A DNA stretch of 64,000 nt, taken from NCBI RefSeq assembly GCF_017305435.1, contig NZ_JAFKIP010000004.1, forward strand, positions 310,001 through 374,000, in the 5' to 3' direction. The notes beneath the pieces are model-generated. The model made no database searches. It was given only the letters and a program-made list of their open reading frames with translations, and was not told where the DNA came from. The first letter of the stretch is position 1; every line of letters begins with the position of its first letter. This DNA is from Microbacterium sp. (GTDB lineage Bacteria > Actinomycetota > Actinomycetes > Actinomycetales > Microbacteriaceae). Below, one piece after another: positions 11,275 through 17,317 of this stretch. Made by a program: the position numbers and the translations under genes.

Positions 11275-11350
11275 TGGTGGGCGATACCAGACTCGAACTG
11301 ATGACCTCTTCCGTGTGAAGGAAGCGCGCTACCAACTGCGCCAATCGCCC
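11275..11350 (-). tRNA. tRNA-Val (CAC)
   Basis: A 76-nt cloverleaf including an encoded CCA. The acceptor stem GGGCGAT pairs with ATCGCCC, the anticodon loop TTCACAC lies between CTTCC and GGAAG, and the T arm contains GTTCGA. The anticodon CAC reads valine GUG codons. It lies alone on the minus strand opposite the Gly-Cys-Val cluster. Confidence 0.95.
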
Positions 11351-11461
11351 GTGATCCGTGAGGACCGAGATCCGATGCTACCGGATGCCGGGCGCCCCGC
11401 CCAATCGACGCGCGTGACACGCGCGGGGGCGCACCGGTTTTGCGCTCGCGCGATCGTCGGC

Positions 11462-11467
11462 TAAAGT
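11462..11467 (+). promoter_or_regulatory. -10 box of the Gly-Cys-Val tRNA operon
   Basis: TAAAGT, with TTGCGC 16 bp upstream (11440-11445) as a possible -35. The predicted transcription start near 11474 is about 27 nt before the first tRNA. Confidence 0.5.
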
Positions 11468-11500
11468 CATTCAAGTGCTCAGGGGAACCGGAGTGCGAAT

Positions 11501-11573
11501 GCGGATGTAGCGCAGTTGGTAGCGCATCACCTTGCCAAGGTGAGGGTCGCGAGTTCGAGTCTCGTCATCCGCT
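11501..11573 (+). tRNA. tRNA-Gly (GCC)
   Basis: A 73-nt cloverleaf. The acceptor GCGGATG pairs with CATCCGC, the anticodon loop has GCC between CACCT and AGGTG, and the T arm has GTTCGAG. CCA is not encoded. First of a Gly-Cys-Val cluster. Confidence 0.96.
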
Positions 11574-11628
11574 CGAGTGCGGGGATCTCTTTTCGAAGGG
11601 GTCACTCCACGTGGGTCGAACCCCACAC

Positions 11629-11699
11629 GGTGGCGTGGCCGAGCGGCTAGGCACCGGCCTGCAAAGCCGTTTACACGGGTTCGAATCCCGTCGCCACCT
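11629..11699 (+). tRNA. tRNA-Cys (GCA)
   Basis: A 71-nt cloverleaf. The acceptor GGTGGCG pairs with CGCCACC, anticodon GCA in CTGCAAA, T arm GGTTCGAATCC. CCA is not encoded. The spacer before it contains a short GTGGG/CCCAC hairpin resembling a T-arm fragment. Confidence 0.95.
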
Positions 11700-11726
11700 C
11701 GCCTCATAACTGAATAGCCTGTTTAG

Positions 11727-11798
11727 GCGCGATTGGCGCAGCGGTAGCGCGCTTCCCTGACACGGAAGAGGTCACTGGTTCGATCCCAGTATCGCGCA
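11727..11798 (+). tRNA. tRNA-Val (GAC)
   Basis: A 72-nt cloverleaf. The acceptor GCGCGAT pairs with ATCGCGC, anticodon GAC, T arm GGTTCGATCC. It shares most of its D and anticodon arms with the tRNA-Val (CAC) on the other strand. Last gene of the cluster, followed by a terminator. Confidence 0.96.
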
Positions 11799-13955: not shown

Positions 13956-15116
13956 TCAGCGGAGCGCGAGCGGAACCACGGCGGCGGCCACGATGACGGG
14001 CGCGGCGACGAGTCCGGCCAGCACGTACCGGCCCCACGGCACCTCGATGTCGAGCGCGCGGAGCCGTTCGTGCCACAGCAGGGTCGCCAAGGACGCCCAC
14101 GGGCTCACGAGGGGACCGGCGCCGACGCCGATGAGCAGAGCGGCGAGGCGCACGGGCGAATCGGCGACGGATTCGAGCGCCAGGTATGCGGGGAGGTTGT
14201 TGACGACGTTCGCCGCGACCGCGCCGACACCCGCGAGCCGCCACAGCTCGAGGAGGCCGTCACCGGTGCCGGTGGCGGCGCTGAGGAGGGCCGGCAGCCC
14301 CCAGGCCTCGAGCGCGCCGACGGCGAGGAAGAGTCCCGAGGCGAAGACGACGAGCTGCCAGGGCAGGAGCGCGAATCGAAGGAATCGGGGCGAGCGCCAT
14401 GCGAACACGAGGGCGAGGGCGACGGCCGCGCCGACGGCCGGAATCCAGGGCGGGATGCCGCTGACGAGGAGCGGCAGCATCACGACGAGGACTCCCGCCG
14501 CCCACCGCAGGAGGACCGGGTCGCTCACGCGGGGCGCCCGGGCCACGGTGAAGCGGCCACGCAGGGCACGGCGATGCCAGATCCACAGCAGGGCGACCGT
14601 CACCACGACCGCGACCACCGCGGACGGGCCGAGCAGGGCGAGGAACGCTCCGGCACCGCCCCCGAGCCGATGGTCGGCGAGGAGGTTCGTGAGGTTGGAC
14701 ACCGGGAGGAAGAGGGATGCCGCGTTCGCGAGCCAGACCGTCGCGAACGCGAACGGAAGCGGCGGCAACCGGTTCGACCGCGCGACGGCGACGACGACGG
14801 GGGTGAGAAGGACAGCCGTCGTGTCGAGGGAGAGGAACGCCGTCACCACGACGGCGAACACGACGATCGAGAGCCACAGCACGACGACGCGGCCGCGCGA
14901 CAGACGCGCGAGACGCGCGGCCACGAGATCGAACACGCCCGCGTGGGCCGCGAGCTCGGCGACGACGGTGACCGCCACCACGAACAGCAGGATCGGCCAG
15001 ACGCGGTCGGCGATCGCGAGCGCGTCGGCGCCCGGGAGCACACCGAAGACGACGGCGCCGCCTCCGAACAGCAGCAGCGTCGCTCCGATCACGGCCTGCA
15101 TCACGGCATCCATCAT
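13956..15116 (-). CDS. Ion transporter superfamily membrane protein (SLC13/ArsB/NhaD-like)
   Basis: A 386-residue, strongly hydrophobic protein with about ten to eleven membrane spans. Motifs such as LSLDTTAVLLTPVVVAVARS, ANAASLFLPVSNLTN and VANVVNNLPAYLALE are typical of the Arsenite/SLC13 (IT) superfamily, where two internally related re-entrant regions with Asn-rich motifs bind the substrate. The substrate cannot be told from sequence: arsenite, citrate-like anions or sodium are all possible. No ars genes are nearby. The frame is open to 15314, but that part overlaps the thrS leader, so ATG 15116 is chosen; ATG 15113 is equally plausible. Confidence 0.75.
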   Translation of the reverse strand: MMDAVMQAVIGATLLLFGGGAVVFGVLPGADALAIADRVWPILLFVVAVTVVAELAAHAGVFDLVAARLARLSRGRVVVLWLSIVVFAVVVTAFLSLDTTAVLLTPVVVAVARSNRLPPLPFAFATVWLANAASLFLPVSNLTNLLADHRLGGGAGAFLALLGPSAVVAVVVTVALLWIWHRRALRGRFTVARAPRVSDPVLLRWAAGVLVVMLPLLVSGIPPWIPAVGAAVALALVFAWRSPRFLRFALLPWQLVVFASGLFLAVGALEAWGLPALLSAATGTGDGLLELWRLAGVGAVAANVVNNLPAYLALESVADSPVRLAALLIGVGAGPLVSPWASLATLLWHERLRALDIEVPWGRYVLAGLVAAPVIVAAAVVPLALR

Positions 15117-15133
15117 GGACCGTGCCGCGGCGA

Positions 15134-15139
15134 TAGACT
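15134..15139 (+). promoter_or_regulatory. -10 box of the thrS transcript
   Basis: TAGACT ending six bases before an ATG at 15146, the same geometry as the other leaderless promoters here. Transcription would start at or next to 15146 and give a leader of about 153 nt before thrS. Confidence 0.55.
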
Positions 15140-15145
15140 GGCGAT

Positions 15146-15232
15146 ATGGGACAGAGCCGGATGATCGATGTCGCGTCCCGTATGCGAACGTCGGGCACGC
15201 GGACGCCCGGTGCACGAACGATCCGGGCCTGA
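15146..15232 (+). CDS. Candidate thrS leader peptide (28 codons, Thr/Arg-rich)
   Basis: A short open frame beginning with the ATG that lies six bases after the TAGACT box and ending in TGA 67 bp before thrS. It encodes 28 residues, with four threonines clustered at codons 15, 18, 20 and 25 (all ACG) in a run reading RTSGTRTPGART. Control codons of this kind in front of an aminoacyl-tRNA synthetase gene are what ribosome-mediated attenuation would need: slow decoding when charged tRNA-Thr is scarce. ACG and CGN codons are common in GC-rich DNA by chance, so the Thr count alone is weak; the leaderless start geometry and the alternative hairpins (15191-15256) are what make it credible. Too short for standard gene finders. 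Confidence 0.45.
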   Translation: MGQSRMIDVASRMRTSGTRTPGARTIRA

Positions 15233-15256
15233 GCGGGCGGGGCGCGGCAGCGCCCG
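15191..15256 (+). promoter_or_regulatory. Possible attenuator with mutually exclusive hairpins before thrS
   Basis: Four segments can pair in sequence. Segment 1 CGGGC (15192-15196) pairs with segment 2 GCCCG (15205-15209). Segment 2 GCCCGG (15205-15210) also pairs with segment 3 CCGGGC (15223-15228). Segment 3 can pair with segment 4 GCCCG (15252-15256). A local hairpin GGGCGC-GGCA-GCGCCC (15240-15255) is also perfect. This is the 1:2/3:4 versus 2:3 logic of attenuators. There is no T-run, so termination without U-tail or masking of the ribosome site would be needed. GC-rich sequence makes such pairings easy by chance. Confidence 0.35.
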
Positions 15257-15298
15257 AAGCTGAGCATCCCATCCGATCCATCCTCTGGAGACCCTCCC

Positions 15299-17317
15299 TT
15301 GACTGACGTCTCACCCGCGGCGGACGTGACCTACCCCGCCGACGGCTTCACCCTGTTCCCCGACCGCTCCGTCATCGCACTGCGCGTGAACGGCGACCTC
15401 AAGGACCTCGCGACGCTCGTCGCGGAAGGCGACACGGTCGAGCCCGTCACGGTGTCGAGCCCCGATGGACTCGCGATCCTGCGGCACTCGACGGCACATG
15501 TGCTCGCCCAGGCCGTCCAACGCATCCGGCCGCAGGCGAACCTCGGCATCGGCCCGCCCATCACCGACGGCTTCTACTACGACTTCGGCGTCGCCGACCC
15601 CTTCACACCGGAAGACCTCAAGGCGATCAAGAAGGAGATGGAGCGGATCGTCCGCGAGAACCAGCGGTTCGTCCGTCGGGTCGTCACGGAGGACGAGGCG
15701 CGCGCCGAGATGGCGGACGAGCCGTTCAAGCTCGAGCTCATCGACCTCGCGGGCGGCCCGGGTTCGGGCGCGAACGCCGCCGAGGGTGCGTCGGCCGAGA
15801 TCGGCGCGGGCGAGCTGACGGTCTACGACAACGTCACCCGTGACGGCGAGACCGCGTGGCGCGACCTGTGCCGCGGCCCGCACGTGCCGTCGACGCGCCT
15901 GGTCGGCAACGGCTGGGATCTCACCCGCATCGCCGGCGCCTATTGGCGCGGCAGTGAGAAGAACCCGCAGCTGCAGCGCATCTACGGCACCGCATGGCCG
16001 ACGAAGGACGAACTGCGCGCGTACCAGCAGCGTCTCGAGAAGGCCGCCAAGCGCGACCATCGCAAGCTCGGCAAGGAGCTCGACCTGTTCTCGTTCCCCG
16101 ACGAGATCGGGTCGGGACTCAGCGTCTGGCATCCCAAGGGCGGCATCGTCCGCGGCGAGATGGAGCAGCACGCGCGTCGCCGTCACATCGCGGGCGGCTA
16201 CACCTACGTGTACACGCCGCACATCTCGAAGGAGGATCTCTTCCTCACGTCGAACCACCTCGTGACGTACAAGGAGGGCATGTTCCCCCCGATCGTCATG
16301 GACGAGGAACGGGATGCCGAAGGCAACGTCACGAAGCAGGGTCAGGACTACTACCTGAAGCCCATGAACTGCCCGATGCACATCCTCATCTACAAGGAGC
16401 GCGCGCGCAGCTACCGGGATCTGCCCATGCGGCTCGCAGAGAACGGCACGGTGTACCGCAACGAGCTCTCCGGAGCTCTGCACGGCCTGACCCGCGTCCG
16501 CGGCTTCACGCAGGACGACTCGCACCTGTTCGTCACCGAGGATCAGCTCGAGACCGAAGCGACCCGTGTGCTGGAATTCGTCATCTCGATGCTGCGCGAC
16601 TTCGGACTCGACGACTTCGAGCTCGAGCTCTCGATGCGCGACGACGAGAAGAGCAAGTGGATCGGCTCGGACGAGTTCTGGGAGTACTCGACCAACGCCC
16701 TCCGCAACGTCGCCGTGGCATCTGGCCTCAAGCTCACCGAGGTTCCCGGCGAGGCGGCGTTCTACGGGCCGAAGATCGACCTGAAGACCCGCGACGCGAT
16801 CGGACGCACGTGGCAGCTGTCGACCGTGCAGGTCGACCCGAACCTGCCTGAGCGTTTCGGTCTGGAGTACACCGGTCCCGACGGCGAGAAGCACCGGCCG
16901 ATCATGATCCACCGGGCGCTGTTCGGTTCGATCGAGCGCTTCTTCGCGATCCTGCTCGAGCACTACGCGGGCGCGTTCCCGGTGTGGCTCGCGCCGGTGC
17001 AGGTCGTCGGGATCCCGGTCGCAGACGACTTCGCGCCGTACCTCGACGACATCGTGGAGCGCCTGCGCGCGCGCGGAGTGCGTGCCGAAGTCGACCACTC
17101 CGCCGATCGGATGCCGAAGAAGATCCGCACCCACACGACGCAGAAGGTGCCCCTGCAGCTCATCGCGGGGGAGCAGGACCGCTCCGCCGGCACGGTGTCG
17201 TTCCGCTTCCGCGACGGGTCGCAGACCAACGGCATCCCCGTCGACGAGGCGATCGAGAAGATCGTCGGAGCGATCGCGGCGCACGCCCTCGTCAACACCG
17301 CGGAGGATCTCGCGTGA
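15299..17317 (+). CDS. thrS: Threonine--tRNA ligase
   Basis: This 672-residue class II synthetase charges tRNA-Thr. A TGS-like N-terminus leads into the editing domain with the HSTAH motif (63-67) and the later CRGPHVPST cysteine. The catalytic core follows, with the zinc cysteine in [10 protein letters not shown], class II motif 2 around [20 protein letters not shown], and motif 3 near [16 protein letters not shown]. The C-terminal anticodon domain is complete. It starts with TTG at 15299, preceded by GGAG at 8 nt spacing; a TTG start is unusual for a housekeeping gene and may lower initiation. A candidate leader peptide and attenuator precede it. It overlaps the HIT gene by 4 bp. Confidence 0.97.

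Follow-up and report, generated by a model that had tools for sequence, protein, structure and literature searches.

A conserved Microbacterium RNA element with a threonine-codon-rich leader peptide as the probable cis-regulatory leader of thrS

In the thrABC leader of Escherichia coli, which controls biosynthesis, the ribosome senses threonine through a leader peptide that also contains Ile codons, and the response is executed by an intrinsic terminator with a U-run. E. coli thrS is controlled by a translational operator in which ThrRS binds tRNA-like hairpins at the Shine–Dalgarno (SD) sequence and no leader peptide takes part; T-boxes respond to tRNA charging ahead of synthetase genes. Leader peptides that lack a visible terminator are on record in Actinobacteria, and how they act is left unsettled in the passages cited (PMC1262725, PMC8079986). 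In Streptomyces lividans TK24, thrS is preceded by thrL, a leaderless ORF with two Thr and a hairpin lacking a uridine-rich stretch, for which termination was called unclear (PMC8079986). The LEU element of leuA combines a peptide of cognate codons, a conserved RNA and two alternative folds, again with no ordinary terminator (PMC1262725).

Here we describe a leader of thrS in a 64-kb stretch of Microbacterium sp. DNA (the window), whose thrS has 97% identity (best segment) to that of M. lacticum DSM 20427, the nearest named record found. With the E. coli thrABC leader it shares Thr codons in a leader peptide and, as we propose, the ribosome as sensor. Cis control of thrS would be shared with the E. 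coli operator, although we noticed nothing else alike. The thrL leader is a direct precedent for a leaderless thrS leader peptide: gene, leaderless short Thr ORF and hairpin without a U-run are the same, whereas the thrL peptide (MKRVRPFLETTPGFVPAR) lacks the RTxxA ending of the Microbacterium leaders and the passages considered contain no conserved RNA fold (PMC8079986). Cognate codons, a conserved RNA region, two folds and the lack of an ordinary terminator are common to the LEU element, which, however, belongs to another gene and amino acid and is said, in the part of the source used, to be without conserved unpaired bases (PMC1262725). Literature searches on Microbacterium leader peptides and on thrS or threonyl leaders, mostly of open-access titles and abstract beginnings, found no description of the RNA element. 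Nor did Rfam 15 families match positions 15050–15400 at E-values up to 1, and the absence of a T-box, already stated in the initial annotation of this DNA, was borne out by the lack of a T-box covariance-model match at the locus. The RNA family defined here can be annotated across Microbacterium genomes as one without an Rfam 15 match.

We consider it probable that positions 15134–15264 form a cis-regulatory leader of thrS that works through Thr-tRNA-dependent stalling on a leaderless leader peptide. The locus has the following features:

15134–15139, + strand: TAGACT, −10-like box of a presumed leaderless promoter, judged by box spacing and conservation in relatives
15146–15232, + strand: leader ORF read from the sequence, 28 codons with 4 Thr, encoding MGQSRMIDVASRMRTSGTRTPGARTIRA and a stop
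15166–15193, + strand: candidate hairpin of HP-A type within the leader ORF, predicted in its window form only when the ORF part is folded alone
15215–15219, + strand: CGAAC, invariant, consisting of Arg codon CGA (−5) and the first two bases of Thr codon −4 (ACG 15218–15220)
15227–15238, + strand: HP-B, GCCU-GAGC-GGGC, separated from CGAAC by 7 nt and containing the stop codon
15229–15264, + strand: stem D, alternative to HP-B, CUGAGC (15229–15234) with GCUGAG (15259–15264), one G-G mismatch, enclosing HP-C
15240–15255, + strand: HP-C, GGGCGC-GGCA-GCGCCC, covarying stem
15256–15263, + strand: GAAGCTGA tail (GAAGCTGA in 98, GCAGCTGA in 9 and GAAAGCTGA in 1 of 108 elements)
15299–17317, + strand: thrS, threonyl-tRNA synthetase, presumed regulated gene, TTG start

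The initial annotation had placed TAGACT six bases ahead of ATG 15146 and had read from this start a 28-codon frame that stops well before thrS, with ACG as codons 15, 18, 20 and 25. All of this is confirmed by the sequence, in which the ACG codons occupy 15188–15190, 15197–15199, 15203–15205 and 15218–15220, TGA 15230–15232 closes the frame and TGGAG lies upstream of the thrS start, TTG 15299. The short ORF ahead of the gene has codons for the cognate amino acid, as is characteristic of leader peptides. The window also contains four tRNA genes at 11278–11798, three on the + strand and one on the − strand.

We compared the DNA ahead of thrS in 118 genomes of the genus, out of 119 searched, and in 80 named relatives, two sets that overlap. 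Regions with an exact CCTGAGCGGGC core ≤200 nt upstream gave a first set of 55 distinct leaders after removal of 5 duplicates, from which alignments of 52 (A1, identical segments dropped) and 54 leaders (A2, L135 left out) were made. In 55/55 of these leaders, chosen by the downstream core, TANNNT stands 6–7 nt ahead of a start (ATG in 47, GTG in 8) that is read in the same frame as the core's TGA, compared with 0/55 for box and start in either other frame, even with spacings of 5–8 nt allowed. The peptides of this set are 17–28 aa long (the whole range of leader frames being 14–28 codons) and end alike: in 55/55 the last residue (−1) is A, preceded by T at −4 and R at −5, and 43/55 also have T at −6. 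Thr codons account for 229 of 1154 codons in the leader frame; the two other frames have 44 of 1099 apiece.

A further set was drawn from 70 loci with covariance-model matches (30 plus 40 fetched, 8 from genomes already used); dropping 18 duplicates left 52 that were distinct and new. Box and start were again in frame in 51/52, against 0 and 0 in the other two frames, the single exception, L360, having TAGACC in place of the box. This set is not independent of the first, with near copies present and two peptides equal to earlier ones, and its search pattern demands CGAAC-N7-core, so that the CGAAC motif itself lies outside its test. On the sequences compared, 55/55 and 51/52 in frame against 0 in the other frames is more than chance, and the box spacing fits a transcript that presumably starts at the leader start codon. 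The 106 leaders combined encode 98 distinct peptides. With the start and the final seven codons set aside, Thr makes up 208 of their 1457 codons (14.3%) versus 5.8% in 31 long ORFs of the window, the highest enrichment ratio of any residue; given the relatedness of the sequences, the binomial p for this enrichment should not be taken at face value. Seven of the 106 leaders have no Thr except the conserved one at −4. Comparison across relatives, which the initial annotation had proposed as a check, shows the Thr codon, the start and the −10 box all conserved and covariation present.

The codon before the conserved Thr is unusual. CGA occupies −5 in 55/55 leaders, yet it constitutes 2.6% of the Arg codons in thrS of the leader-bearing loci, which suggests that what preserves its bases is their part in the RNA, their slow reading as a codon, or the two together. 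It could be that CGAAC is conserved for its RNA sequence and that Thr is a by-product.

The leader frame runs into the RNA element, whose consensus reads CGAAC-N7-GCCUGAGCGGGC-R, followed by the covarying 6-bp hairpin HP-C and GAAGCUGA, with a tail of the form G[AC]AGCUGA. HP-B is invariant in 52/52 rows of A1, and its pairing is kept in 54/54 aligned leaders. The pairing of HP-C is kept in 51/54, and in 103 of 108 distinct elements all 6 of its pairs are standard, around a loop of 2–8 nt. Its stem occurs among the 108 as GGGCGC/GCGCCC (51), GGACGC/GCGUCC (20), GAGCGC/GCGCUC (7), GGAUGC/GCAUCC (2), GCGACG/UGUCGC (1) and GCGGCG/CGCCGC (1). The covariation score of the named structure was 0.199 versus 0.129 ± 0.008 for shuffled alignments (reached by 0/500). 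Slid versions scored ≤0.089, a control that favours the named structure because it came from the same alignment. Both controls were also exceeded in cells paired. Weaker measures were reached more often, pairs with two-sided changes by 24/500 shuffles and further pair types by 17/500, and in a scan of all columns the top scores besides HP-A and HP-C pairs were mostly between non-pairing columns.

The inverted repeat of HP-C lies near a second TANNNT box in 22/55 relatives, which might suggest that the element acts as DNA, being the operator of a transcription factor, and not as RNA. The spacing of the repeat varies from 2 to 8 nt and its arm sequence changes, however, while its position in the reading frame is fixed, and we regard an operator as very improbable. 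As for RNA structure further upstream, an HP-A helix within the leader ORF is probable, if not sure: a GCGAC/GTCGC-type stem at codons ∼−14 to −9 is found in many relatives, with two-sided changes at all 6 pairs and 73.4% of cells paired. It is only mildly stronger than in codon-order shuffles (mean z −0.93) and is absent from the whole-leader minimum-energy fold of the window. An outer GCUUC:GAAGC stem was seen by eye in some rows only.

The initial annotation had read the locus as attenuation of thrS by tRNA charge, with four alternative hairpin arms. Its Thr leader peptide withstands the comparison across relatives; the attenuator anatomy does not, given unconserved arms and no U-run. Within the window the arms do complement one another, and the predicted minimum-energy fold of its leader combines the 2:3 hairpin (15205–15210 with 15223–15228) with HP-C and stem D and leaves out HP-B. 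As a conserved attenuator they failed, all pairs being kept in 1/54 (1:2), 5/54 (2:3) and 9/54 (3:4) leaders, and they appear to be mostly features of the clade of the window. In the window type and in L006, L007, L009 and L010 the leader tail is seemingly ∼5 codons longer (..TRTPGARTIxA), as if a T-R-T unit had been copied (window 15188–15220), and this extension would account for the GCCCGG/CCGGGC arms. The lack of a T-run, named by the initial annotation as a weak point, extends to the whole comparison: the window has neither a U-run nor a terminator-like site, and among the 55 leaders 4 have 5 T in 8 and none more. Classical ribosome-mediated attenuation by intrinsic terminator and antiterminator, for which the Thr codons, the complementary arms and the predicted 2:3 hairpin of the window would speak, is thus quite unlikely in view of the poorly kept arms and the missing T-run; we rejected it as lacking the hairpin with U-run that defines it.

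A different pair of folds is built from conserved bases. HP-B and stem D are mutually exclusive, sharing the same invariant bases, and two near-isoenergetic pairings on shared bases would explain this invariance, which also makes a covariation test of stem D impossible. Five pairs of stem D are possible in 101/108 elements and four in 7, and it is predicted for the window (0.76 free). The two folds have similar energies in the window (−19.2 with HP-B, −19.6 with stem D) and differ by no more than ∼1 kcal/mol in the examples given, L148 and L342 excepted. HP-B has the lower energy in 8/108; this comparison rests on counts and example rows, the means being spoilt by one unfoldable row. Whole-leader minimum-energy folds contained HP-B in 7/55 and HP-C in 38/55. 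In L148 and L342, the UGA in HP-B has become CGA, replacing U.G by C-G (GCCC:GGGC), a TAG stands two codons upstream, and HP-B is favoured over stem D by nearly 5 kcal/mol, which makes these natural variants useful for testing the one fold against the other.

Folding with ribosome-blocked bases gave no clear ribosome-driven switch. Placing a ribosome on codon −4 did not raise the predicted probability of stem D (0.18 to 0.13). For HP-B this probability was only 0.21 in the free state, and the window gave 0.00. Pairing of the thrS SD was ∼0.7 in every ribosome state. This predicted constancy differs from the LEU element, in which, according to the passages cited, the codon run pairs with the leuA SD (PMC1262725); comparable complementarity between Thr codons and SD was seen by eye in some rows only. 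The near invariance of CGAAC, of the HP-B loop and of GAAGCTGA, together with the lack of a terminator and of a clear switch, would suit a structured RNA bound by ThrRS or another protein, which would control thrS with the short ORF being secondary, as was argued for the LEU element in part of the source (PMC1262725). Against this stand the conserved start, frame and Thr enrichment, as well as L148 and L342, where the stop has moved, yet start box, CGA-ACG frame, 7-nt spacing and a stop just after are retained. No loop resembling a Thr anticodon was noticed by eye, and overall protein binding seems to us an unlikely explanation.

The reading we prefer is ribosome stalling. Comparison shows that box, start, reading frame, Thr codon and spacing are conserved, that HP-C covaries, and that the element is single-copy and stands before thrS. 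From these we infer the steps that follow, namely translation, stalling, the choice between HP-B and stem D, its sign and the output step. The leaderless transcript would start at or next to ATG 15146 and be translated at once into the short peptide. When charged tRNA-Thr is scarce, ribosomes would stall at Thr codons, above all at the ACG after the rare CGA. From the conserved Thr codon to HP-B, which begins at +13 (first base of the P-site CGA as +1), the distance is 9 nt, and the footprint of a ribosome reaches ∼+15/+16, so a ribosome awaiting Thr-tRNA would cover the 5′ strand of HP-B. Such masking would free the other bases for stem D, whereas with plentiful Thr the ribosome would move on and HP-B could form. 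This choice may set thrS expression, with Thr shortage raising it. The output would most likely be at transcription, through Rho or a hairpin without U-run. A Rho-dependent output is plausible by analogy with Mycobacterium tuberculosis, where the passages cited report Rho-dependent termination in a riboswitch leader bearing a uORF (PMC12810186). Counting against stalling are the lack of a U-run and of a clear fold switch, the weaker covariation measures, the seven leaders whose only Thr is at −4, the rarity of predicted HP-B, the preference of L148 and L342 for it, the patchy presence of the element and the second box.

Whether the leader represents a new class of amino-acid-sensing RNA is a more tentative matter, and we would put this forward as possible but doubtful. 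In such a class, CGA-ACN would be placed to the nucleotide so that the stalled ribosome masks HP-B and flips bases to stem D or to a pseudoknot between AGC of the HP-B loop and GCU of the tail, and the resulting fold would act on RNA polymerase or Rho with neither a U-run nor SD sequestration. With more than 100 distinct sequences, a fixed codon–hairpin spacing, a near-invariant core that allows two exclusive pairings, and presence and absence in close relatives, the mechanism is testable with few mutations.

Across 366 Microbacterium genomes, the covariance model built on the core gave a match at E ≤ 0.001 in 144, with a single copy per genome. A thrS match was found in the stretch for all 70 inspected loci, ∼28 of the 144 matching genomes lying outside this one-by-one check. 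The exact core is present in 53 of the 118 genus genomes and a variant in one more (L148); the other 64 have neither. At the family level, 26 of 249 genomes matched at E ≤ 0.1, 24 of them outside the genus with a best value of 0.006, which is about chance, in a search whose strict filters lose weak matches. A set of 60 class genomes gave one match (E 0.35), so that outside Microbacterium these searches found only noise-level matches. A loose exact pattern occurred in 18/58 genomes, 5 of its 20 matches being unlike the element. When 143 other thrS upstream regions were scanned for Thr-containing leaderless ORFs, we recovered copies of L036, L188 and L195, the variant L148 and the weak cases L112 and L175. 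Similar ORFs in the 60 class genomes had no more than 2 Thr in 23 codons, and neither a TTPG motif like that of S. lividans nor a clear match to model R1 was found there.

A thrS tree with 89 rows requires 11 changes in the presence of the element, at least 10 of these on well-supported branches, and this patchiness may reflect either gain with repeated loss or transfer. It would also fit a short ORF and motif that are inert remnants or arose by chance in GC-rich DNA. The covariation of HP-C, a near-invariant core in diverged species and the frame and Thr tests all argue to the contrary and leave that explanation hardly credible. By a rough pattern count, the upstream neighbours were of one type in 15 cases, of another in 2 and unclassified in 38, which suggests that the element accompanies thrS.

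The second TANNNT box mentioned above lies between element and SD in 22/55 leader-bearing relatives and is absent from the window; it is likely to mark a second, leader-independent thrS promoter in those relatives. Of the 65 genomes lacking the exact core, 62 carry a TA[AGC][ACG][CA]T box in the ∼110 nt ahead of the thrS match, compared with 0, 0, 3 and 1 of 65 for stretches lying farther upstream, and in some of these genomes thrS itself looks leaderless. L196–L201, which have no leader, show TAGGAT, TAGAAT or TAGACT boxes ∼6 nt before a thrS GTG start. L035 (Microbacterium sp. 70-16) has a weak, apparently decayed element just before thrS at 1382–1466 (17.3 bits, E 0.31), with a proximal TAGCCT box.
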